Virus record (IMG/VR): IMGVR_UViG_3300044691_000355
Span: 62,001-126,000 of that record
DNA length: 64,000 bases
Reading direction: 5' to 3' (one strand)
Origin: a virus
How positions within the stretch are numbered: the stretch's first letter is position 1; each line of letters opens with the position of its first letter. Below the pieces are notes generated by a model, which was not told the DNA's origin, did not search any database, and saw nothing but the letters and a program-made list of their open reading frames with translations. Positions 2,529-62,341 of this stretch are shown piece by piece. The position numbers and the translations under genes are program-made.

Positions 2529-2887
2529 AGCCAGTACGTTATGCGGATCGACGCGTTGCCCTCATCGCACTCCTGCGTGGCGAGAAAATCCCGCCACGAA
2601 TTGCATGCAAGGGCTTGCGACCGAAACTCGCGTCCTATCTGTTGGACCTCGTTTTAGAAGAAGAGCACCTGAGCGACGCTATCCTGTTCGACCTAGAGTT
2701 AGCGTATCGCGACGTTTGCGAGGATGAGTTGGTCTATGCGCTGCGTCGCCCGAAGGAACGCGCCTGGCGTCGGCATTGCGCAAACATCAGCGGGGCGAAT
2801 GCCACTCATCGCGTGGGCCGCCCCATTCTTGACGCGCAGGGATTCGTGCTGATCTATCCCACGGAATCTACTGTAGGTTCCACGTGA
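2525..2887 (+). CDS. Hypothetical phage protein
   Basis: 120 residues from GTG 2525, overlapping the previous stop by 4 bp. It is Arg-rich with alternating acidic helices (LVLEEEHLSDAILFDLELAY). The next gene begins in its last bases, so it belongs to one operon. No family recognised. Confidence 0.55.
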   Translation: MKPVRYADRRVALIALLRGEKIPPRIACKGLRPKLASYLLDLVLEEEHLSDAILFDLELAYRDVCEDELVYALRRPKERAWRRHCANISGANATHRVGRPILDAQGFVLIYPTESTVGST

Positions 2888-3498
2888 AGCAAGTTTATCC
2901 CTTGAACTGGCCGCCATCGTGGAGGCGCACGCTCGCCGATCAGCGCACGCACGCACGCTTCAACAGCACCAGGGATGGGGGCGGCAGGAATGACGTGACG
3001 ATGCGCGGCGCGCTGGAGCGGATCGAATACGAGATGAGCATGATGCGCATCTTGCTCGCGGATGTGGTCGTGACCACGAATCATGCCGTGCGCCGTGACG
3101 GCTCGGACTACGCGAAGCCCCCGCCCCTCACTGATCCGGGCGTTGCTGTGTACTGGAAACACAAGGGCAAGCACGAGCGCTGCATGGCGATTGATCGATA
3201 CGACACTATCGCCGGGAACCTCGCGGCCGTCGCTGCATCCCTGTATGCGCTGCGCGCGGTCGAGCGTCACGGTGGAGCTGAGATCATGGACCGTGCCTTC
3301 ACCGGCTTCGCCGCGCTGCCATCGATTGAGCAATGGTTCCAAGTCCTGGGCGTGAGCGCGAACGCCAACAAAGAGGAAATCGACCGAGCATTTCGCCGCC
3401 TCGCGAGCGCCCATCACCCCGACAGGAGCGATGAGAATGATTCCGTGATGGGGCGCATCAACCGCGCCCGCGATCAAGCCATGGAGCAATTTGAATGA
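2884..3498 (+). CDS. J-domain (DnaJ-like) phage protein
   Basis: 204 residues. The C-terminal 55 are a J domain: WFQVLGVSANANKEEID, a helix, then the HPD tripeptide in HHPDRSDEND and a final helix. J domains stimulate the ATPase of host DnaK-type chaperones. There is no G/F region or zinc domain, so this is a J-only adaptor. The N-terminal 140 residues are unrecognised and may bind the client. Phages with RecT-type early operons often carry such proteins; the client here is unknown. Confidence 0.75.
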   Translation: MKQVYPLNWPPSWRRTLADQRTHARFNSTRDGGGRNDVTMRGALERIEYEMSMMRILLADVVVTTNHAVRRDGSDYAKPPPLTDPGVAVYWKHKGKHERCMAIDRYDTIAGNLAAVAASLYALRAVERHGGAEIMDRAFTGFAALPSIEQWFQVLGVSANANKEEIDRAFRRLASAHHPDRSDENDSVMGRINRARDQAMEQFE

Positions 3499-41359: not shown

Positions 41360-42352
41360 TCAACGGGATTGAATCGTGACGCCCGCCCAGTTCTTGAACG
41401 AGGTCATCGCAGTGTCCCAATTGGAACCGGTGGCAATGGCTGAATCGGCCGGATTGGCGCCGCCGTTGGTGATGTCGTATTTGAAGCCCTTGACGCCAAG
41501 GTTGTACGCAAATTCCCCCTGGTAACGCACCACCAAGTTCTCAAGGCCTGTGATGTCGATCACCACCAATTCCTCCTGCTCCGTGCTCTCGACCAATGCA
41601 CCACCCACCGTCAACCCCAGCGTGTAGTAGTTCGTAAACGCCGTCGAACCCGAGCCACCCGAGACGACCAAGGCATCGGAGTCGGTGACGATGACCGGGC
41701 GATTCATGGTGACCGGCTGGCCCTGGGCCACGTTGAAGTTAGACACGTTTAAGATGTTCGCCGTGATCTGATTAGCAACCAGGTCATAGTACGGTTTCGA
41801 GTGCATGATCCAGGCGACGACCTGATCGGCCGCATCACCGAACTTGGAAAGTCCAGATACCAGCCCTGCGGTATTGAGCGTGCCGTTGGTCGGCACCGTG
41901 TACAGGTTGGTGGCCTGATTGGCGAGCGCTGAACGCGTCGCGCGCAACGCACTGTTGAGCATGTCGAGCTGCATCGCAATTGCCGACTGCTGACCCAGGA
42001 TGAACGACAGTTCCTCGCTGGTCTTACCCATCGCGATCTTACGGAATGCGTCGCGGGTTTGACCGACAGGGCCGATCTTCCGATTGAGCTTAACGCTGAT
42101 GATCTCATTCTCGGCCAACGCCAAATCGGTCGCCGCGCTCGTGGAAGTCGTATCGCGCCGAGAAATGAGGTTGGTGACGCTCGAGAAGAATGCAGCCTGT
42201 GAGAAATCTCCGCGCCGCGAGATCGTGTTCAACACGATTGCCCCACGCGAAGCGTCGTTGAACGCCTTACTGTTCTGCGTGAGGACTTCGACAATACCGG
42301 ACTGGTACTGTTCTTGGTAGACGACGAAATCTGATGCTTTACCGATAGCCAT
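41360..42352 (-). CDS. Major capsid protein
   Basis: 330 residues, follows the scaffold gene with AAAATCGTCATGG context. ASDFVVYQEQYQSGIVEVLT at the start and IISVKLNRKIGPVGQTRDAF are in the N-arm region; VNQ-like WIMHSKPYYDLVANQIT and NRPVIVTDSDALV fit the A domain of HK97-fold capsids. Size, position and absence of proteolysis motifs support the call. Confidence 0.85.
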   Translation of the reverse strand: MAIGKASDFVVYQEQYQSGIVEVLTQNSKAFNDASRGAIVLNTISRRGDFSQAAFFSSVTNLISRRDTTSTSAATDLALAENEIISVKLNRKIGPVGQTRDAFRKIAMGKTSEELSFILGQQSAIAMQLDMLNSALRATRSALANQATNLYTVPTNGTLNTAGLVSGLSKFGDAADQVVAWIMHSKPYYDLVANQITANILNVSNFNVAQGQPVTMNRPVIVTDSDALVVSGGSGSTAFTNYYTLGLTVGGALVESTEQEELVVIDITGLENLVVRYQGEFAYNLGVKGFKYDITNGGANPADSAIATGSNWDTAMTSFKNWAGVTIQSR

Positions 42353-43163: not shown

Positions 43164-43388
43164 CTAGTGTAAAAATACGGGCAGTGCCCGCGTGACGGCG
43201 TGTGCATCGCACGCGCCAAGATTCTCGTCATCCTCGTGAACGATGATCCGTGCGTCCACAGGATCTCGGTACGGACGGCACCAGCACCACAGCGCCGGAT
43301 AGTGCGCGACGGCTATATCGTCTGCGTCGACTGGCAGCACGTGCTTATCGTCGCAATCCTCGTCAACGAACACGCCCCAGCGGTTCAT
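43164..43388 (-). CDS. Hypothetical small head-region protein
   Basis: 74 residues, acidic and Cys/Trp-containing (ALWCWCRPYRDPVDARIIVH). The start overlaps the MuF-like stop and the stop precedes the scaffold. The function is unknown. Confidence 0.5.
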   Translation of the reverse strand: MNRWGVFVDEDCDDKHVLPVDADDIAVAHYPALWCWCRPYRDPVDARIIVHEDDENLGACDAHAVTRALPVFLH

Positions 43389-45421
43389 AGGCCGGCTCGC
43401 TTGAATGCAATTGGATCGCTGGCGCGCATCTCATCGAGGGTCATTGGGGCGAACTTCTTATCGACTTGAAGTGCTGAAAAGCGCTCCGCTGATAGGCCGC
43501 CGTCGCGCAACAGCTTGCCGCGGGTGGGTCCGATCGCGAGGTCTTGGAAATTTGCTGGTTGGGTTTTCAGCCAATCGTAATAGCTCAAATCCGCAGAGAC
43601 TTGCTGACCGCCTTCAGCACCTTTGGATGCGCGCGTCGCTCCCTCGTCTAAAAACGCGTACTCGTCTTTCAGAACCGGGACCATTGTGCAGCGACAGTTG
43701 TGCGTTATAATTCCATTCGCGACGTAAAATCCTTTTTCAGTCTCAAGGTTGTACACGTGACCAGAAAACTTACGCACTTCAATCCCGACGACGTTGTCAA
43801 ACTCTACCGCTCCAAAATGCCCACTGGAGATATCTGCGCCAAGCTGCGCATCTCCAAAACCGTCATGTACAGGGCGCTCACCGAAAAGCACTGCAAGATG
43901 TTTTCCAAAAGAGAGATCGCGCAGGGCGCTGTTCCAACCCAGCGAATTCTTTCGCTTTACCGTAGCGGCATTGGAATGAGCGGCATCCAAAAGAAAACCG
44001 GCGTCGGCCGGGTTGCCGTCAAATCCATCTTGCGCAAAAATGGCGTCAGTATTAGGGGGCGGTCGGATCAGCAACAAGCGAGAATGGATCGCGCAACACC
44101 GGAAGAACGCAAGCGGCTCACTAAACCATCGCACGATGCGGCCCGCGGCAGTACGCACACCGAAGAGCATCGTTGCAAACATGCAAAGACACGAGAGGAT
44201 CGGCAAACACACATTTCCGAATACGAGAGGCTCCTTGCAATTGCGCTCAAACAACGAGGACTCACGCCCATCTGCCAAAAAGCGGTTGGTCGCTACAATT
44301 GCGATATCGCCATCGATTCCATCGCCGTGGAAATCTTCGGCGGTGGTTGGCACTGGCATGGCGCGCATCTCGATGGAAGCGAAAAACGCATACGCTATAT
44401 CCTCAATGCGGGCTGGCACTTGCTGATGATTCACATCACCGATGACGCTGGTTTCGACGGCATCGCAAACCACGTCGTCGCCTTCCGCGATGAGATGCGC
44501 AGCGATCCAGCCGCGACTCGTCAATACCGGGTGATTCGCAGTAACGGACAGGCTCTTTCCGCCGGCCGTGCGAATGACGACAAGATGTCCATCGAATGGG
44601 CGTTTACTAACACCCGTGATCTTGTAACGGGACGATACAAGAGCGTCCCCAGGCACGCAATTAATATGGAGGGGCGGGCGGGGTCCGCGATCAGCGGGGA
44701 ACTGCCGTAGGTCGAGGCTGCGACAGCTCGGACAGCTTCTTTTATCGAGCACGCTCAACCATTGATACGCCTTGATGATGTCGGCATTGGCGGCGAATGA
44801 TTCCAAGCGCGCCACCGTCGCCACATGCTGAACTGCGGTGCGTACAACCGCTTCGGCATGGCGCGAGGTGACGTTGAGAAGCCCATCCTGATAGTTGCGC
44901 GCATGCGAGCCTCGCAGCTCTGAAATGATCGACTGATTGGTCTTGCCCTCAAACACACCGCGGCGAATCGTGCCGTTCACGCCGCGAACTTCCGTTTGCG
45001 TCCAGTTCTCGATGAATGACTTCAGAAGCGCGCCGCGGCCGCTGCCTTTCACGCCCAATGGCGTTGCAAGAATGGCCGCGCGAATCTGCGTGATGCTAGG
45101 AATGACGGCATCGAAGGTTGTGGCGGCGTCTAGCGCACCAGATGAAAATCGCGCTTCATGCCGCGCGAATTCCTCCAAGTTGAGCAGCAGTTGCTTCGAG
45201 TAGCGGTTCAGAATCCCATCCATCAACGTATCAACCGTCGATAGCAGTTGCTCCATGCGCTCGCGCGCTAGGCCGGTGACGCTAGAGTCCGCCATGGCAT
45301 CGCGCAGCGCGCGGTCCATTTCCTTCAGAAACGGCTTGAACTTCGCGACCTCGCTGCTCGATAGGCGCTGAATCAGTACCTGATGACGCAGAAGCGCATC
45401 TTGTAGCGGGACGGCGGCCAT
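43385..45421 (-). CDS. MuF/SPP1 gp7-like head morphogenesis protein carrying an intein
   Basis: 678-residue precursor. N-extein 1-254 is a MuF-type minor head protein (RRGVFEGKTNQSIISELRGS; HAEAVVRTAVQHVATVARLE; then CPSCRSLD). The intein covers 255-575. The C-extein (576-678) begins CRCTMVPVL. Removal of the intein restores LHIN-CRCTMVP, the conserved metal-site-like motif of this family, giving a 357-residue protein. It helps join portal and capsid interior. Translation overlaps the small gene upstream by one base. Confidence 0.85.
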   Translation of the reverse strand: MAAVPLQDALLRHQVLIQRLSSSEVAKFKPFLKEMDRALRDAMADSSVTGLARERMEQLLSTVDTLMDGILNRYSKQLLLNLEEFARHEARFSSGALDAATTFDAVIPSITQIRAAILATPLGVKGSGRGALLKSFIENWTQTEVRGVNGTIRRGVFEGKTNQSIISELRGSHARNYQDGLLNVTSRHAEAVVRTAVQHVATVARLESFAANADIIKAYQWLSVLDKRSCPSCRSLDLRQFPADRGPRPPLHINCVPGDALVSSRYKITGVSKRPFDGHLVVIRTAGGKSLSVTANHPVLTSRGWIAAHLIAEGDDVVCDAVETSVIGDVNHQQVPARIEDIAYAFFASIEMRAMPVPTTAEDFHGDGIDGDIAIVATNRFLADGRESSLFERNCKEPLVFGNVCLPILSCLCMFATMLFGVRTAAGRIVRWFSEPLAFFRCCAIHSRLLLIRPPPNTDAIFAQDGFDGNPADAGFLLDAAHSNAATVKRKNSLGWNSALRDLSFGKHLAVLFGERPVHDGFGDAQLGADISSGHFGAVEFDNVVGIEVRKFSGHVYNLETEKGFYVANGIITHNCRCTMVPVLKDEYAFLDEGATRASKGAEGGQQVSADLSYYDWLKTQPANFQDLAIGPTRGKLLRDGGLSAERFSALQVDKKFAPMTLDEMRASDPIAFKRAGL
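43697..44659 (-). other. Intein in the MuF-like gene
   Basis: 321 residues. Cys1 starts block A (CVPGDALVSS). Block B shows T-x-x-H in SVTANHPVLTSRGW. Block F/G is FSGHVYNLETEKGFYVANG then IITHN, with the penultimate His and last Asn, and the +1 residue is Cys. All residues needed for class 1 splicing are present. The sense-strand middle (about residues 335-545) has no LAGLIDADG or HNH motif that I can see. The opposite strand codes for an endonuclease. Confidence 0.92.
43757..44710 (+). CDS. Vsr-like (EDxHD-type) endonuclease encoded antisense within the intein
   Basis: 317 residues from GTG 43757, with AAGG 8 bp upstream; the frame is open from GTG 43700. Two helix-turn-helix segments open it (DDVVKLYRSKMPTGDICAKL and ILSLYRSGIGMSGIQKKTGV). 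The nuclease core follows: E in SEYERLL, D in YNCDIAID, then AVEIFGGGWHWHGAHLDGSE and ILNAGWHLLMIHI, very like Vsr and DUF559 enzymes. It shares codon boundaries with the intein frame. The last 40-50 residues are complement of intein block A/B and may be passive. Confidence 0.75.
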   Translation: MTRKLTHFNPDDVVKLYRSKMPTGDICAKLRISKTVMYRALTEKHCKMFSKREIAQGAVPTQRILSLYRSGIGMSGIQKKTGVGRVAVKSILRKNGVSIRGRSDQQQARMDRATPEERKRLTKPSHDAARGSTHTEEHRCKHAKTREDRQTHISEYERLLAIALKQRGLTPICQKAVGRYNCDIAIDSIAVEIFGGGWHWHGAHLDGSEKRIRYILNAGWHLLMIHITDDAGFDGIANHVVAFRDEMRSDPAATRQYRVIRSNGQALSAGRANDDKMSIEWAFTNTRDLVTGRYKSVPRHAINMEGRAGSAISGELP

Positions 45422-45624
45422 TATTTGCGCACCTTTGCGCCCCTGGCAAAGCCTTTTCGCTTTTTATTTTTAAAAGCAGCAATGACTTCCTTTTTCGGAT
45501 TTACGAGCGACCGCAGCGCTTCATTATCTCCACGACGAATGCCGCGTGTAACAGTAGTTTGCGTGCCTTTGCCCGCTGGATGATGTTTCTTCTCGCCGCC
45601 TGCGTTGAAGTTGGGAATCTTCAT
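45421..45624 (-). CDS. Small basic head-region protein
   Basis: 67 residues, 30% basic (FKNKKRKGFARGAKVRK at the end). It may bind DNA or act during packaging, but nothing specific is visible. Overlaps both neighbours. Confidence 0.5.
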   Translation of the reverse strand: MKIPNFNAGGEKKHHPAGKGTQTTVTRGIRRGDNEALRSLVNPKKEVIAAFKNKKRKGFARGAKVRK

Positions 45625-45959
45625 GGCTCGTCATTCCCGCCGGTATCGACGCAGCGGCCCGCGCGAATGTATCCATGCCAGCCGCAGTGCGCAGAGCAGT
45701 TGATCGAGGGTGAGAACGTGGGGCACTGCCGATCGCCGTCCCAATCCCACTGCGGCCGGCCGCCGTTATTGCCTTGAGGGTCGCGCGGAATGTTGTGACC
45801 TGAGTTCGCAATCAGCAGATTGCCGCAGGTCATCGGCTCCATGGCAGCATGCCGGTTGCGGTTACCACGTACACAGCGAAACGTGAAGCGCTGCGGCACT
45901 TCGCCGGGTGGGCAGTGTTCGGCGTCGAGGCGCAAGAATTGCACGTGCGCTTTGCTCAT
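45621..45959 (-). CDS. DUF6527-like protein
   Basis: 112 residues. RPQWDWDGDRQCPTFSPSIN followed by C...CGWHGYIRAGRCV fits the W-x-W-x-G...PT-x-x-PS pattern and C/H ligands of DUF6527, small metal-binding phage proteins of unknown function. Confidence 0.65.
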   Translation of the reverse strand: MSKAHVQFLRLDAEHCPPGEVPQRFTFRCVRGNRNRHAAMEPMTCGNLLIANSGHNIPRDPQGNNGGRPQWDWDGDRQCPTFSPSINCSAHCGWHGYIRAGRCVDTGGNDEP

Positions 45960-46379: not shown

Positions 46380-46528
46380 GAGCGATTCCTCTTTCGCGCA
46401 GCACGCGCAGCCTTAGCTTTGGCGCGACTGGCGGTGCGGCGCTTAGCAAACTCAACGGTTTCACCCAATCGACGGTGCTCTTTGGTCAAGCGTATCGGGC
46501 CGTGATATTCGCCGGTGAGTACGCTCAT
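46376..46528 (-). CDS. Small basic protein after the portal gene
   Basis: 50 residues: MSVLTGEYHGPIRLTKEHRR, then a Lys/Arg/Ala-rich helix (AKRRTASRAKAKAARAARKR). ATGA overlaps join it to the portal stop and the zinc-ribbon start. The basic helix may contact DNA. Confidence 0.55.
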   Translation of the reverse strand: MSVLTGEYHGPIRLTKEHRRLGETVEFAKRRTASRAKAKAARAARKRNRS

Positions 46529-48153
46529 AGCGCGCCGCCCACGTCATTCGGTTCATTCGGGGCGCCCTCTGACTTATTGGCCGCGAGTGCGGTAGGCAAC
46601 AGCGCGCCACCAAATAACGGTGGTGGCCGTACGGGGTCCTGTGAATCCAGTTCCTCCTGAATCTCTTCGTCCGTTTTCTCAGGATCAATCAGCTCCATGT
46701 TGCGCAGCGCTTGCCAGAAATCGGACTCCGGCAGCTTGCCTGCCTGCACCATGGTTAGCAGCGCTGACAAGGTTGGCGCATCGATATTCGTGCCCAAGAA
46801 GTTCGTGTTGATCTCGAAGGAATTATCATCCGCATCATCATCGCCGTCGGCATTCGCGACAAGCGTCACATTCTCGAACTTCGCCGCCCACGACAAGCAT
46901 TTCGAGAGCGCCATCGACACGTTGTTACAACTCAACGTCAGCACCGAATGCGCGCTCGCATCCTCGCTATTTTGCTGCGTAGCAGTCTTGACGACACCAT
47001 TGTTGTTGAGTAGTCGCGCGCCCAAGGAAGCCATCTGCTGCTCTTTGTCGAGCATGGCCATGCGCGCGAGCGTGTTGGGCTGCGCCTGGAGCACACCCGC
47101 GGATCCGCCGACTGGAATCGGCAAGATAGAACGCGAGCCGACCACGATGCCTTTTTCCTCGAGGTCAGTGAGCCAACGCTCATCCATCCCCGACATCCAG
47201 AACTGCGGCTGTCCGACGATGTACGCCGAGTCCTCATAATCGGCAGAGTTGCGGTAGTGCGCGATGTTGAGCGAACACAAATCAAACAGCGGAATGGGTC
47301 CGATGTAGTGACTGTTGTTGTGCGCACCAATAAAGGAAAACGGGATTTCATCCCACGGATTTCCGGCACCATCAAACACCACGGACGGCCCCTCGTGCAT
47401 GTACCAGCCTTGCGAGGAGATGCGCCAGAGCTCTTGCGTGTAAACGCGCCCTTTACCGTTCCAGTTCAACGTCGACAAGGTAGAATCTTCCCAGGGCAAA
47501 TACGCTGCATCGCCATCGATCAAGCGCAGCACCCGATACTGATCCATGCATGGCGCCACCCACTGCGTATCTTCTTCCCACGTCTCGCGCAGCACCAAGA
47601 GCGCGGTCAGCTGCTTGGCGCCGCGCTTCACGGAGCGCCAGTTGATGATGTCGCGCGCGCCGTAGAAGTTCACGATCACGCGTGAATCTCCCGCGATCTG
47701 CTGCGCTTTCGACACCAGCCCATTGGTCTGCGGATAATCAACCAGCACACCCGCACGCCCCATTTGCAGCACTTCAGCAAGGCATTGCTGCGCAAGCTGC
47801 ACGAGCGAAAGGCCTGAGCCGGTGATGTCGGTCGACAGGAACTCGAGCGGCGGCGGCAGGGTCAGCGTCGGATCTTGATTGAACGCGAGTCCAAGCAACG
47901 CCGACAGCGTGCGACCGCTGGCGTTGTAGTAAACGGCGCGTTTGACGTACTGGCTGTAGCGAAGCTTGTTGTCTTCGGACTTATCGTGCGGATTTGGCTT
48001 CGGCAGGTAGCGCTCGGGAAAGAGCTTGACGGCCGCCTCACCAGCGCACGCATCCGCAACCAAGTCCCACTGCCATAAGTGCATCGCGTATTCGTTGCGC
48101 GGCGTCTCGACCGAGTTTGGTCTGACTGAGGCGAGTTCAGCGGGTACGCTCAT
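46525..48153 (-). CDS. Portal protein (DUF4055 family)
   Basis: 542 residues. LWQWDLVADACAGEAAVKLF, RYSQYVKRAVYYNASGRTLS and LQMGRAGVLVDYPQTNGL are portal features of DUF4055 proteins, and IPLFDLCSLNIAHYRNSADY the later conserved block. It forms the dodecameric ring through which DNA enters. Directly follows the terminase gene. Confidence 0.85.
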   Translation of the reverse strand: MSVPAELASVRPNSVETPRNEYAMHLWQWDLVADACAGEAAVKLFPERYLPKPNPHDKSEDNKLRYSQYVKRAVYYNASGRTLSALLGLAFNQDPTLTLPPPLEFLSTDITGSGLSLVQLAQQCLAEVLQMGRAGVLVDYPQTNGLVSKAQQIAGDSRVIVNFYGARDIINWRSVKRGAKQLTALLVLRETWEEDTQWVAPCMDQYRVLRLIDGDAAYLPWEDSTLSTLNWNGKGRVYTQELWRISSQGWYMHEGPSVVFDGAGNPWDEIPFSFIGAHNNSHYIGPIPLFDLCSLNIAHYRNSADYEDSAYIVGQPQFWMSGMDERWLTDLEEKGIVVGSRSILPIPVGGSAGVLQAQPNTLARMAMLDKEQQMASLGARLLNNNGVVKTATQQNSEDASAHSVLTLSCNNVSMALSKCLSWAAKFENVTLVANADGDDDADDNSFEINTNFLGTNIDAPTLSALLTMVQAGKLPESDFWQALRNMELIDPEKTDEEIQEELDSQDPVRPPPLFGGALLPTALAANKSEGAPNEPNDVGGAL

Positions 48154-58744: not shown

Positions 58745-58917
58745 GCCTGGAACTCGCCGCCGCCCTAGCGCTGCTGATCACTTGCATCGTCGGCGTTGGC
58801 GTCTGCGTAATCATCAAACGCCGCAAGCCAACGCTTCTACAAGCCCCTGAGCGCGCGGCTATTCGCGAAGTCTACGAGCATGCGCACCGCGTCGGGAATA
58901 TGCGGGGGGTGAAATGA
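58741..58917 (+). CDS. Small membrane-anchored protein
   Basis: 58 residues, N-terminal transmembrane helix (LELAAALALLITCIVGVGVC), basic stop-transfer (IIKRRK), helical tail. ATGA overlaps at both ends. Function unknown. Confidence 0.5.
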   Translation: MSLELAAALALLITCIVGVGVCVIIKRRKPTLLQAPERAAIREVYEHAHRVGNMRGVK

Positions 58918-59903
58918 ACGCAGCGCTCATCGATGTAGGGACGCTCGATCGCCAGACCTACTTGGGCGGCGGCGATATCGCAGGCGTCCTAGGGTTATCG
59001 CCCTGGACGTCGCGCCTCGGCGTGTTCCAGAAAAAGACTGAAGTTCAAGAGGATCGACCGTCTTCAGGCAAGAAGAAACTCTTCAGCCGCGGCAAGGTGT
59101 GGGAAAAAGTCGTAGGCGAAATGCTCGTCGCCGAACTCGAAGCGCGCGAGCACACCGTTGAAGTCTTGAGCACCAATCACCGCTATCTCGATCCCGCTGT
59201 ACCCTACTTCGCCGCGGAGATCGACTACGAGATACGGCTCGACGATATTCCCGGCATCGTCAACGTGGAATTGAAGACAGTCCATCCAAACGCATCGCGC
59301 GAGTGGGGAGAGTCGGATACGGACGAATGCCCTGTGCACTACGCCGCGCAAGCCATGTGGGGCTTAGGTATCACGGGGCGCACGTGCTGCCTGGTCGCGC
59401 CGCTGTTTGGCGCCGATGAAATCCGCGTGTATCCGATCGTGCGTGACGAGGCGACCATCGAGGGCATGCGCAAAATGGCGCGCGAGTTTTGGGAGCAGCA
59501 CGTCATTGCACGCGTGGCGCCGGAGCCAGTCGATCTGCGCGACGTCGACCGGCTGTTTAAGCGCGAGGCCGATAGAGGTGTTGTCGCTGACGAGTGGGCG
59601 GTCGAACGGCTCATGCGCTACCGCGCCTGCGATGCGGAAATCGAGGCGCGAGCGCTGGAGCGCGATGTACTTGAATTTCAGCTTAAGCGCTATATGGGCG
59701 CTGCGAACACGCTCACCCTGCACGGATCGGATACGCCAGCGATCACCTGGAAATCAAGGCCGAACGCGCATTTAGATCAAGAACGCCTCAAGGCCGAATA
59801 TCCGAAGCTGCACGCGCAATTCTTAAAGCGCGGCACCTCACGAGTTTTTCAAGTCAAGACAACGGCTGCGAGCAAAGCGGTCAACACCATAGGAAACGTA
59901 TGA
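58914..59903 (+). CDS. YqaJ-type viral recombinase / exonuclease
   Basis: 329 residues. GGGDIAGVLGLSPWTSRLGV is the YqaJ start; RGKVWEKVVGEMLV, then EIDYEIRLDDIPGIVNVELK with E-x-K as catalytic end of the PD-(D/E)XK fold, and HYAAQAMWGLGITG as conserved helix. It degrades dsDNA 5'-3' to make single strands for RecT, encoded next with ATGA overlap. Confidence 0.88.
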   Translation: MNAALIDVGTLDRQTYLGGGDIAGVLGLSPWTSRLGVFQKKTEVQEDRPSSGKKKLFSRGKVWEKVVGEMLVAELEAREHTVEVLSTNHRYLDPAVPYFAAEIDYEIRLDDIPGIVNVELKTVHPNASREWGESDTDECPVHYAAQAMWGLGITGRTCCLVAPLFGADEIRVYPIVRDEATIEGMRKMAREFWEQHVIARVAPEPVDLRDVDRLFKREADRGVVADEWAVERLMRYRACDAEIEARALERDVLEFQLKRYMGAANTLTLHGSDTPAITWKSRPNAHLDQERLKAEYPKLHAQFLKRGTSRVFQVKTTAASKAVNTIGNV

Positions 59904-60976
59904 ACCAACCCATATCATCGGCGGATCGATTGCGTTCGGCTGCGACCGGGCAAGTCGCGAAGCGCGTACCCGAAAGCCTGCCGGAAATGCTGAACGCCTA
60001 CGGCTCGCAGATCGCCGCTGCGCTCCCGCGTCACATCACCAAGGAGCGCATGATTCGCATCGCCCTCACCGCGTTTCGGCAAAACCCGAAGCTCGCGGCC
60101 TGCGATCCGAAGTCAGTCTTTGCCTGCGTCATCATGTCGGCGCAATTGGGGCTCGAGGTCGGTGTGCTCGGTCAAGCATACTTGGTGCCCTACAAGCAGC
60201 GTGACGGCAGTTTTATTTGCACATTCATCCCCGGCTGGCAGGGATTGCAGGACCTGGTGAACCGCTCAGGCCGGGCGACGACGTGGACGGGCGCGGTCTA
60301 CGCTGGCGATGAGTTTGATTACGAATACGGCTCTAGCCCGATGATCCATCACAAGCCCTGCGGCGAGGATGACCCGGCGGCGATGACGCACGCGTATGCA
60401 ATTGGCCGCGTGCGCGGCGGCGAGTACCCGATCATCGAGGTGTGGCCGGCGCTGAAAATCAAACGCCACCGTGACCGGTACAACAAGGTCGGCGATAAGC
60501 ACTATTCGTATGAGAACGCGGAGATGTACGCGCGCAAAGTGCCGCTCATGCAAGTGTTCAAGTACGTGCCGAAGTCGGTCGAGATGGCCACTGCGCTGGG
60601 GCTTGACTTCGCGGCCGACGCCGGTACGCAGATGATCGACTTGAAGGATGCGGTCGAAGGTAATTTCCTACCACCTGTCGCCGAGCAAGACCCGGCGCAG
60701 GAAACCGAGAAAACGGGTAGCGATGCGGGCAATGGCGCGATGCCGTCAACTGGCAGCACGGAATCCGTCGACCCTCGCCGCGAAATCGACCAGCCAGGAA
60801 TCATCGCGACGCTGCGCAAGGCTGCTACCACCGACGAGCTGGCCACGCAATGGGATCTGGTGCGCTCGATCTATAAGGCCGCCGGCAAAGAAATTCCGAT
60901 AGATATCGAGGCCTGCAAGCACGATCACGGAGAAACGCTCAAGCAGCGCGAAGCCAAGGCGACGAAAGGCAAATGA
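59900..60976 (+). CDS. recT: RecT-family single-strand annealing protein
   Basis: 358 residues. RIALTAFRQNPKLAACDPKS, then SVFACVIMSAQLGLEVGVLG and AYLVPYKQRDGSFICTFIPG are the RecT core. WAL-like PALKIKRHRDRYNKV and YENAEMYARKVPLMQVFKYV follow. The last 100 residues are a linker and small C-terminal domain. It is a second annealase beside that at base 2, and the two ends look unlike one another. Confidence 0.9.
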   Translation: MNQPISSADRLRSAATGQVAKRVPESLPEMLNAYGSQIAAALPRHITKERMIRIALTAFRQNPKLAACDPKSVFACVIMSAQLGLEVGVLGQAYLVPYKQRDGSFICTFIPGWQGLQDLVNRSGRATTWTGAVYAGDEFDYEYGSSPMIHHKPCGEDDPAAMTHAYAIGRVRGGEYPIIEVWPALKIKRHRDRYNKVGDKHYSYENAEMYARKVPLMQVFKYVPKSVEMATALGLDFAADAGTQMIDLKDAVEGNFLPPVAEQDPAQETEKTGSDAGNGAMPSTGSTESVDPRREIDQPGIIATLRKAATTDELATQWDLVRSIYKAAGKEIPIDIEACKHDHGETLKQREAKATKGK

Positions 60977-61018
60977 TCCGCGTTCCTCAGCGCCAAAGCA
61001 ATCACAGGAGAATAATTC

Positions 61019-62341
61019 ATGCGCATCGTCCGACTTGAGTCAGAAGGGATAAAACGCCTCTACGCGGTGTCGATCACGCCAGATGGCAATGTGGTCGAGG
61101 TCACTGGAAAAAACGGCGAGGGGAAAAGCAGCACTCTCGATTCGATATGGTATGCCGTCGGCGGCTCGGCTAATATCCCCGCGCAGCCGATCCGCAAGGG
61201 CGCGCAAGAGGCCCGCATCCGTCTCGACATGGGCGAAATCATCGTCACGCGCAAGTTCAAGCGCAAAGGCGAGCACGAGTACACGACGTCCGTGACTGTC
61301 GAGAATGCCGACGGCGCGCTGTTCAAGAGCCCGCAAGAGCGGCTGAATGCGCTGTTCTCCGCGCTGACTTTCGATCCGCTGGATTTTCTGCGCGCGAAGC
61401 CCAAAGACCAGTACGACATGGTGCGTGTCTTCGTGCCCGACATCGATTTCCAATTGATCGAGGATCAGAACCGCGGTGACTTCGAGCGGCGCACCGAAGC
61501 CAATAAGCGCCTTGCTGAAGCCAAGGCGGCAGCGGGGCTGATCGTCATTCCCAATGATTTGCCTGACGAGGCGGACGAAGCGGCGTTACTCGACCAGATG
61601 ACGAACGCAGCCCAGCATAACTCCAACATCGAGCGCGAGAGCGAGCATCGACAGCAGCGCGCCGCCGACATCGAGCGTGCGCTTTTGAAGGTTGGCCAAT
61701 ATCGCGATGAGCGGGATGCGCTTCGCAAAAAGGCGGAGGCGATGGAGGCGGCTGCAGTCGCGCTGGAGCAGCAAATTGCGTTGGATGAGACGAGCCTGAA
61801 ATCCGCCGGATCGCTGGCCAAGCCCATCGACGTGGCCCAGGTCCGCCTGCAGCACGCCCAAGCCCAGGCGGCAAACCAGCGCATCGCTAAGGCCGCGGAA
61901 GACCAGCGCCGCAAATCATCGCTTGAAAAAGTGGCTGGCGATGCCGCGCTGCTGTCGGATGAACTCACGAACCGGATCGCGGCGCGCAACAAGACGAAGC
62001 ACGACGCCATTGCAGCGGCGAAAATGCCGGTCGAAGGGTTGGGATTCGGTGACGGCTACATCACGCTGAATGACCTGCCGTTTGATCAGGCATCCAGTGC
62101 CGAGCAATTGAAGGCGTCGGTGGGCATCGCCATGCGCACCAATTCCAAGCTGCGCGTGATCCTGATCAAAGACGGCTCGCTGCTGGATGCTGATAGTTTC
62201 GCGCTGCTGACGGAGCTGGCGGAAGAAAACGGATTTCAGGTGTGGGTTGAATCGGTGTTCGCGCATAGCGAAGCGGCGCTAGTCATCGAGGACGGGCGCG
62301 TGAGGGCAAAGGTCAACGCCGAAGAAGAAGCGACCGCATGA
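61019..62341 (+). CDS. SMC/RecF-like ATPase of the recombination operon
   Basis: 440 residues, with AGGAG before ATG. Walker A in GKNGEGKSSTLDSIW at about 30-45, a coiled coil from about 160 to 335, and a C-terminal ATPase lobe with LRVILIKDGSLLDADSFALL in the Walker B region. The place of the usual D-E pair is K-D-G, as in some phage AAA_23-type proteins. It may act in DNA end processing with YqaJ and RecT. Confidence 0.75.
   Translation: MRIVRLESEGIKRLYAVSITPDGNVVEVTGKNGEGKSSTLDSIWYAVGGSANIPAQPIRKGAQEARIRLDMGEIIVTRKFKRKGEHEYTTSVTVENADGALFKSPQERLNALFSALTFDPLDFLRAKPKDQYDMVRVFVPDIDFQLIEDQNRGDFERRTEANKRLAEAKAAAGLIVIPNDLPDEADEAALLDQMTNAAQHNSNIERESEHRQQRAADIERALLKVGQYRDERDALRKKAEAMEAAAVALEQQIALDETSLKSAGSLAKPIDVAQVRLQHAQAQAANQRIAKAAEDQRRKSSLEKVAGDAALLSDELTNRIAARNKTKHDAIAAAKMPVEGLGFGDGYITLNDLPFDQASSAEQLKASVGIAMRTNSKLRVILIKDGSLLDADSFALLTELAEENGFQVWVESVFAHSEAALVIEDGRVRAKVNAEEEATA

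Follow-up and report, generated by a model that had tools for sequence, protein, structure and literature searches.

The window analysed here is a 64,000-nucleotide stretch of viral DNA, positions 62001-126000 of the 132,772-base virus record IMGVR_UViG_3300044691_000355 (G000:C1). Its minus strand carries a gene for a MuF/SPP1 gp7-type minor head (head morphogenesis) protein (43385..45421, minus; Phage_Mu_F 9e-10, phageSPP1_gp7 3.2e-13, phrog_241 3.5e-128) that is interrupted by an intein of 321 residues (43697..44659, minus). The plus strand of the same DNA carries a 317-residue gene with a GTG start, a candidate homing endonuclease gene antisense to the intein (43757..44710, plus). The two frames have identical codon boundaries and thus lie in an exactly complementary register, confirming what a first-pass annotation, made from the sequence alone, had described.

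An intein in the MuF gene

The intein is inserted ahead of the cysteine in the H-x-N/C-R-C motif of the MuF protein. Read from 44659 to 43697, it begins with Cys1, has the block B motif T-A-N-H (TxxH) and ends in His-Asn, followed by a +1 Cys. The N-terminal splicing block (residues 1-62; 44474..44659, minus) is conserved in the minus frame across loci, as is the C-terminal splicing block, which comprises blocks F and G in the last 38 residues (43697..43810, minus) and matches intein_Cterm. The intein also matches Intein_splicing (2.4e-7) and intein_Nterm. In the AlphaFold model of the minus-strand product, the HINT part adopted a HINT fold, mostly at a predicted local distance difference test (pLDDT) score of 80-97. 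The nearest solved structures were mycobacterial RecA mini-inteins, of which the Mtu RecA mini-intein was the best (probability 1.00). Motifs, profiles and predicted fold therefore agree that this segment is an intein, as first annotated, and splicing is predicted.

Residues 127-268 of the model had pLDDT values that were nearly all below 50. Profile scans found no endonuclease match in the minus frame of the intein middle, so the endonuclease that canonical mobile inteins carry in frame is missing here. For the most part, the minus frame acts here as a spacer that stays open and folds poorly.

A predicted DNA-binding nuclease on the opposite strand

The plus-strand protein was modelled with a mean pLDDT of 88.4. 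It contains two predicted helix-turn-helix (HTH) units, both helical in the model. Unit 1 spans residues 10-43 (43784..43885, plus; HTH_7) and unit 2 residues 61-94 (43937..44038, plus; Cbp1-like/HTH match, alignment A1). An EDxHD/Vsr-like nuclease domain (44216..44506, plus) is indicated by MTES_1575 and Vsr profiles, by profile and fold similarity to I-Bth0305I and Vsr, and by conservation.

Searched alone, the window protein matched HTH_7 above the Pfam cut-off and PHROG 1303 ("DNA binding protein", 3e-10), with weak matches to MTES_1575 and Vsr. When 56 relatives were scanned singly, 41 matched the MTES_1575 nuclease domain (best 1.6e-8) and 30 matched HTH_7. A profile built from 15 relatives matched the solved structures of Cbp1 (2e-7), I-Bth0305I (0.004) and Vsr (0.004). 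Foldseek placed I-Bth0305I, Cbp1 and Vsr at ranks 2-4 for the plus-strand model (probability 0.99-1.00), which points to a Vsr-like nuclease fold (3r3p, probability 1.00; 1cw0, probability 0.99), though the scores were weak. The profile search of both translations, suggested in the first-pass annotation, thus recovered intein domains on the minus strand and the HTH and nuclease domains it had described on the plus strand.

The conserved residues of the nuclease domain include E157 (44225), D183 (44303), E192 (44330) and H199 (44351), all on the plus strand. Y180, N181, D183, E192 and H199 are kept in 56/56 relatives, and E157 in 55/56. The E-D-x-H-D motif is matched in part, by the conserved E157, D183 and H199; no conserved final Asp was identified. 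Relatives differ in how many HTH units they have (alignment A1; L002, L007, L010 and L012), so gains and losses of units must have left the intein frame open too.

Selection switches strand along the intein

We compared divergence at codon positions using a frame-neutral aligner that weighs both frames equally. In the intein middle, plus-frame third positions were the most variable in all 35 disjoint pairs (p=6e-11), while in the exteins and splicing blocks it was the minus-frame third positions that varied most. The C-terminal splicing block split 2:30 over disjoint pairs, the opposite direction to the middle (35:0). Silent change in the plus frame also predominated in the middle between close pairs.

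Stop codons were likewise avoided. Conditioned on the plus-frame amino acids and local codon usage, 5.8 antisense stops were expected in the intein middle of the window and none was present (P about 0.001). Across the intein middles of 71 loci, 254 were expected and 0 observed. Since plus-frame third positions vary most in the middle and the expected antisense stops are absent, the middle is coding on the plus strand and the minus frame is kept open. Constraint falls on the minus strand in the splicing blocks and exteins, and on the plus strand in the intein middle. The first-pass annotation had proposed that the same bases constrain both products and had called for a per-frame comparison of substitutions. 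That comparison upholds two real frames and the conservation of the plus frame in the middle, but not an equal constraint along the full length.

Putative expression signals opposite the splicing motifs

The complement of the splicing motifs appears to supply the plus-strand gene with a TATAAT box, a Shine-Dalgarno (SD) site, a start codon and often a stop codon. In the window, a putative -10 element, TATAAT (43706..43711, plus), lies opposite the block G codons ATT ATA. An SD-like AAGG (43745..43748, plus), in the complement of the block F residues YNLE, precedes the GTG at 43757. This pairing had been noted earlier and is borne out by SD enrichment in the family. A further in-frame GTG at 43700 is not favoured as the start because the start in the family is located at the block F site.

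Across the family, block F reads H-V-Y-N-L-[EQ]-T, and its complement, GAGGTT-GTA-GAC-ATG or similar, forms an SD site and start. ATG or GTG stands opposite the block F His position in 57/67 loci, and the Leu codon of block F is CTC in 44/63, against 22% use of CTC in the exteins. Block G reads G-I-I-[TA]-H-N, with the complement TGT-TAT-AAT; its first Ile codon is ATT in 47/57 and its second ATA in 32/40. By synonymous resampling, an exact TATAAT was found in 17/60 relatives against 1.2 expected, and an SD core of at least 4 nt in 33/60 against 11.2 expected. Where an exact TATAAT was present, it sat 45 nt upstream of the start in 17 of 23 cases. The plus-strand stop lies opposite intein residue 2 in 35/71 loci, and a Leu at this residue is encoded by TTA or CTA in 36/37. 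Control inteins from PF14890 searches had an SD core at only 1/31 block F/G sites (2/31 being family members) and a median of 7 antisense stops per 220 codons. Scanning the window with a sigma-70 pattern revealed no two-hexamer promoter ahead of the plus-strand gene and no -35 element. We infer the promoter, and the case for its -10 element comes from the codon bias of the family.

The arrangement recurs in phages and probably arose twice

Relatives of the plus-strand protein were found in viral contigs (12 by direct search and 201 by profile, of which 80 were kept) and in nine GTDB genome contigs, labelled Rubellimicrobium, Gemmatimonadales, Ornatilinea, Firmicutes, Lamprocystis, Micromonospora, Scytonema, PVC group and Solirubrobacterales. 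They were also found in 121 phage records, including Salmonella, Pseudomonas, Klebsiella, Gordonia, Vibrio and Escherichia phages and others. Only two plasmid records matched. The nuclease lies within an open, stop-free antisense frame in 108/109 loci, and the antisense arrangement recurs in more than 100 phage and prophage sequences. The host genes encode MuF/minor head proteins in all loci scanned for the host, and the plus-strand gene stops inside the intein in 65/71 relatives. Most of the fetched phage records have no annotation of this gene.

None of the loci retrieved with the intein N block had a degenerate plus frame. Where loci from this search lacked the usual plus-strand match, they encoded divergent plus-strand nucleases instead, except in Gordonia phages Barsten and Nordenberg, which carry a different antisense endonuclease. 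Homologous inteins keep the plus frame open, with conserved nuclease residues and Vsr/MTES_1575 matches, so the antisense reading withstood the comparison on which the first-pass annotation had staked it beforehand.

The inteins of Barsten and Nordenberg occupy the same MuF site, and their antisense endonucleases (L113:2549-3226 and L117:2546-3223, minus) are unrelated to the one described above. These proteins match PHROG 5046 (2.5e-15) and a cyanophage endonuclease (2e-6), the Barsten protein has no Pfam hit, and a reading of their motifs suggests that they are LAGLIDADG-like. Over codons 91-240 of the Gordonia intein middle, 45 changes fall at sense position 1 and 11 at position 3, showing that the antisense frame is conserved over the splicing frame. 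Given that these inteins carry a different antisense endonuclease, the arrangement probably has two origins.

Footprint of homing in Salmonella phages

The intein-free MuF protein of Salmonella phage TUMS_E6 is 98.3% identical to the spliced sequence of sidste. Between these near-identical Salmonella phages, an 816-nt insertion is present or absent at one exact site, as expected of a homing element. DNA identity was 0.93-1.00 in the far extein windows, 0.63 and 0.82 in the last 120 nt upstream of the insertion and 0.78 in the first 60 nt downstream. Conversely, the upstream flank of sidste shared 0.93-0.95 identity with coliphages Snoke and E2010 and with Salmonella phage LSPA1. The inteins of these three phages were 0.93-0.99 identical to that of sidste, while their more distant N-extein was only 0.43-0.82 identical. 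The upstream flank of sidste thus matches intein-bearing phages and not its near-identical intein-free relative. Judged from these alignments, relatives of the window intein show the footprint that homing with co-conversion would be expected to leave (PMC3943268).

A probable mobile intein with an antisense homing endonuclease

We interpret the element as a mobile intein with its homing endonuclease encoded antisense to it as a separate protein, a reading to which we give a probability of roughly 0.9. It draws on the two coding frames, strand-specific conservation and signal enrichment computed here, together with the presence/absence pattern and co-conversion footprint in relatives. From these we infer promoter activity, cleavage, a target site and the plus-strand enzyme as the cause of homing. 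The minus strand would yield a head protein precursor from which the intein would splice itself out. The plus-strand gene would probably be transcribed from its own promoter in the block G complement and translated from the SD site and start codon in the block F complement. In the resulting enzyme, the HTH units would bind the target and the EDxHD/Vsr-like nuclease domain would cut it. The most likely substrates are intein-less MuF alleles, which would be cleaved at the conserved H-x-N/C-R-C site during mixed infections. Repair would then copy the whole element plus flanks into the cut allele. More broadly, and with less assurance, we consider it likely that this is a two-strand selfish element forming a widespread phage intein family. 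Its minus strand would serve splicing and its plus strand would encode a self-expressing endonuclease with signals complementary to the splicing motifs, with at least two origins (EDxHD/Vsr-like and LAGLIDADG-like).

Several points weigh against an antisense homing endonuclease. The plus-strand gene of the window lacks the usual stop inside the intein and ends 51 nt past the N-terminal end of the intein. The Vsr and I-Bth0305I matches are weak (profile E 0.004-0.06, Foldseek E 0.006-0.03), and residues 190-196 owe part of their conservation to ascertainment, since this stretch was in the scan pattern. The signal tests treated loci as independent after near-duplicate removal only. Searching with the plus-strand protein is biased towards intact copies, and the only search for degenerate ones was that with the intein N block, together with the loci fetched from it. 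Lastly, Acinetobacter phage BUCT629 has a free-standing nuclease relative directly downstream of an intein-less MuF gene (L108:1821-2711, plus), whose antisense frame has 11 stops. The enzyme thus need not be encoded antisense to an intein; the BUCT629 gene is plausibly an ancestor or an escapee.

Three other explanations were weighed. The intein could be mobile while the plus-strand nuclease is now mostly inactive, its movement reflecting ordinary recombination of co-infecting phages. The divergent active-site variants of L016 (VAVEVHRTAQYP) and L109 (VAVEVVTGGG) are compatible with such decay, but the main family shows no variation at the candidate active-site residues and silent change dominates the plus frame even between close pairs, which makes this explanation unlikely. 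We regard as slightly less likely still that the gene encodes a real DNA-binding nuclease with another role, such as regulation or exclusion of other phages. The multiple HTH units and Cbp1/resolvase-like DNA binding would suit such a role, whereas the confinement of the gene to the intein in 65/71 loci with MuF hosts, the movement of the intein with co-conversion and the homing-endonuclease-type fold speak for mobility. Finally, the shared-codon register promotes long antisense open reading frames (ORFs) in GC-rich DNA, and the window holds others of 180-323 aa, yet we dismiss a functionless by-product of chance because five such control ORFs match no profile while the plus-strand protein and 41/56 relatives match nuclease domains, because the strand switch strongly contradicts it, because antisense stops are avoided, and because the arrangement persists in 38% GC DNA (L013).

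Gene neighbourhood

The MuF gene belongs to a minus-strand head gene block with terminase-like, DUF4055 portal, MuF head protein and Gp13-like major capsid genes. It is flanked by the portal gene (46525-48153) on one side and the major capsid gene (41360-42352) on the other. A small DUF6527 gene (9e-10; 45621-45959, minus) lies between the MuF and portal genes. Elsewhere in the window, positions 58914-62341 (plus) encode a phage recombination set of YqaJ-like exonuclease, RecT and AAA_23/SMC-like ATPase, which could have a role in double-strand break repair. An ORF at 2884-3498 (plus) has a DnaJ domain close to its C-terminal end (2.4e-9).

Comparison with known systems

Canonical mobile inteins with an in-frame endonuclease, such as PI-SceI (PMC3943268), share with this element the HINT domain, the insertion into a conserved host motif and an element-borne endonuclease. 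Here, however, the endonuclease is separate and on the opposite strand, the minus-frame middle is a poorly folding spacer, and the expression signals are found opposite the splicing motifs. I-Bth0305I (PDB 3r3p), listed as a mobile intron protein and reviewed among group I intron enzymes (PMC3943268), is a multidomain phage homing endonuclease with a similar Vsr-like nuclease core. The enzyme described here differs in being encoded antisense to an intein and in its tandem HTH units. The out-of-frame "ShiLan domain" (PMC11855218) is also a homing-type endonuclease with a GTG start in another frame of an uninterrupted host ORF, but it is of the HNH type, lies in a third frame of a methylase gene and involves no intein or splicing motifs. 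Endonuclease genes in the nuclear group I introns Dsq.L2066 and Dir.S956-2 lie on the strand opposite the host gene, and an internal promoter was suggested for Dir.S956-2 (PMC9548176). These are RNA introns with no second protein-coding frame beneath the endonuclease gene. Literature searches found no description of antisense endonucleases in inteins; a 2025 actinobacteriophage intein preprint (Gosselin et al.), which PMC11855218 cites on overlapping reading frames of actinobacteriophages and which could include the Gordonia cases, lay outside their coverage, and priority is uncertain.

The element would be a clear example of a long antisense protein overlap in which selection on each frame can be measured, and its occurrence in isolated phages makes it open to laboratory tests. 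It links the codons of splicing motifs to transcription and translation signals, and it suggests a route by which an intein endonuclease is expressed apart from the late head protein. Inteins annotated as lacking an endonuclease may have one on the opposite strand.
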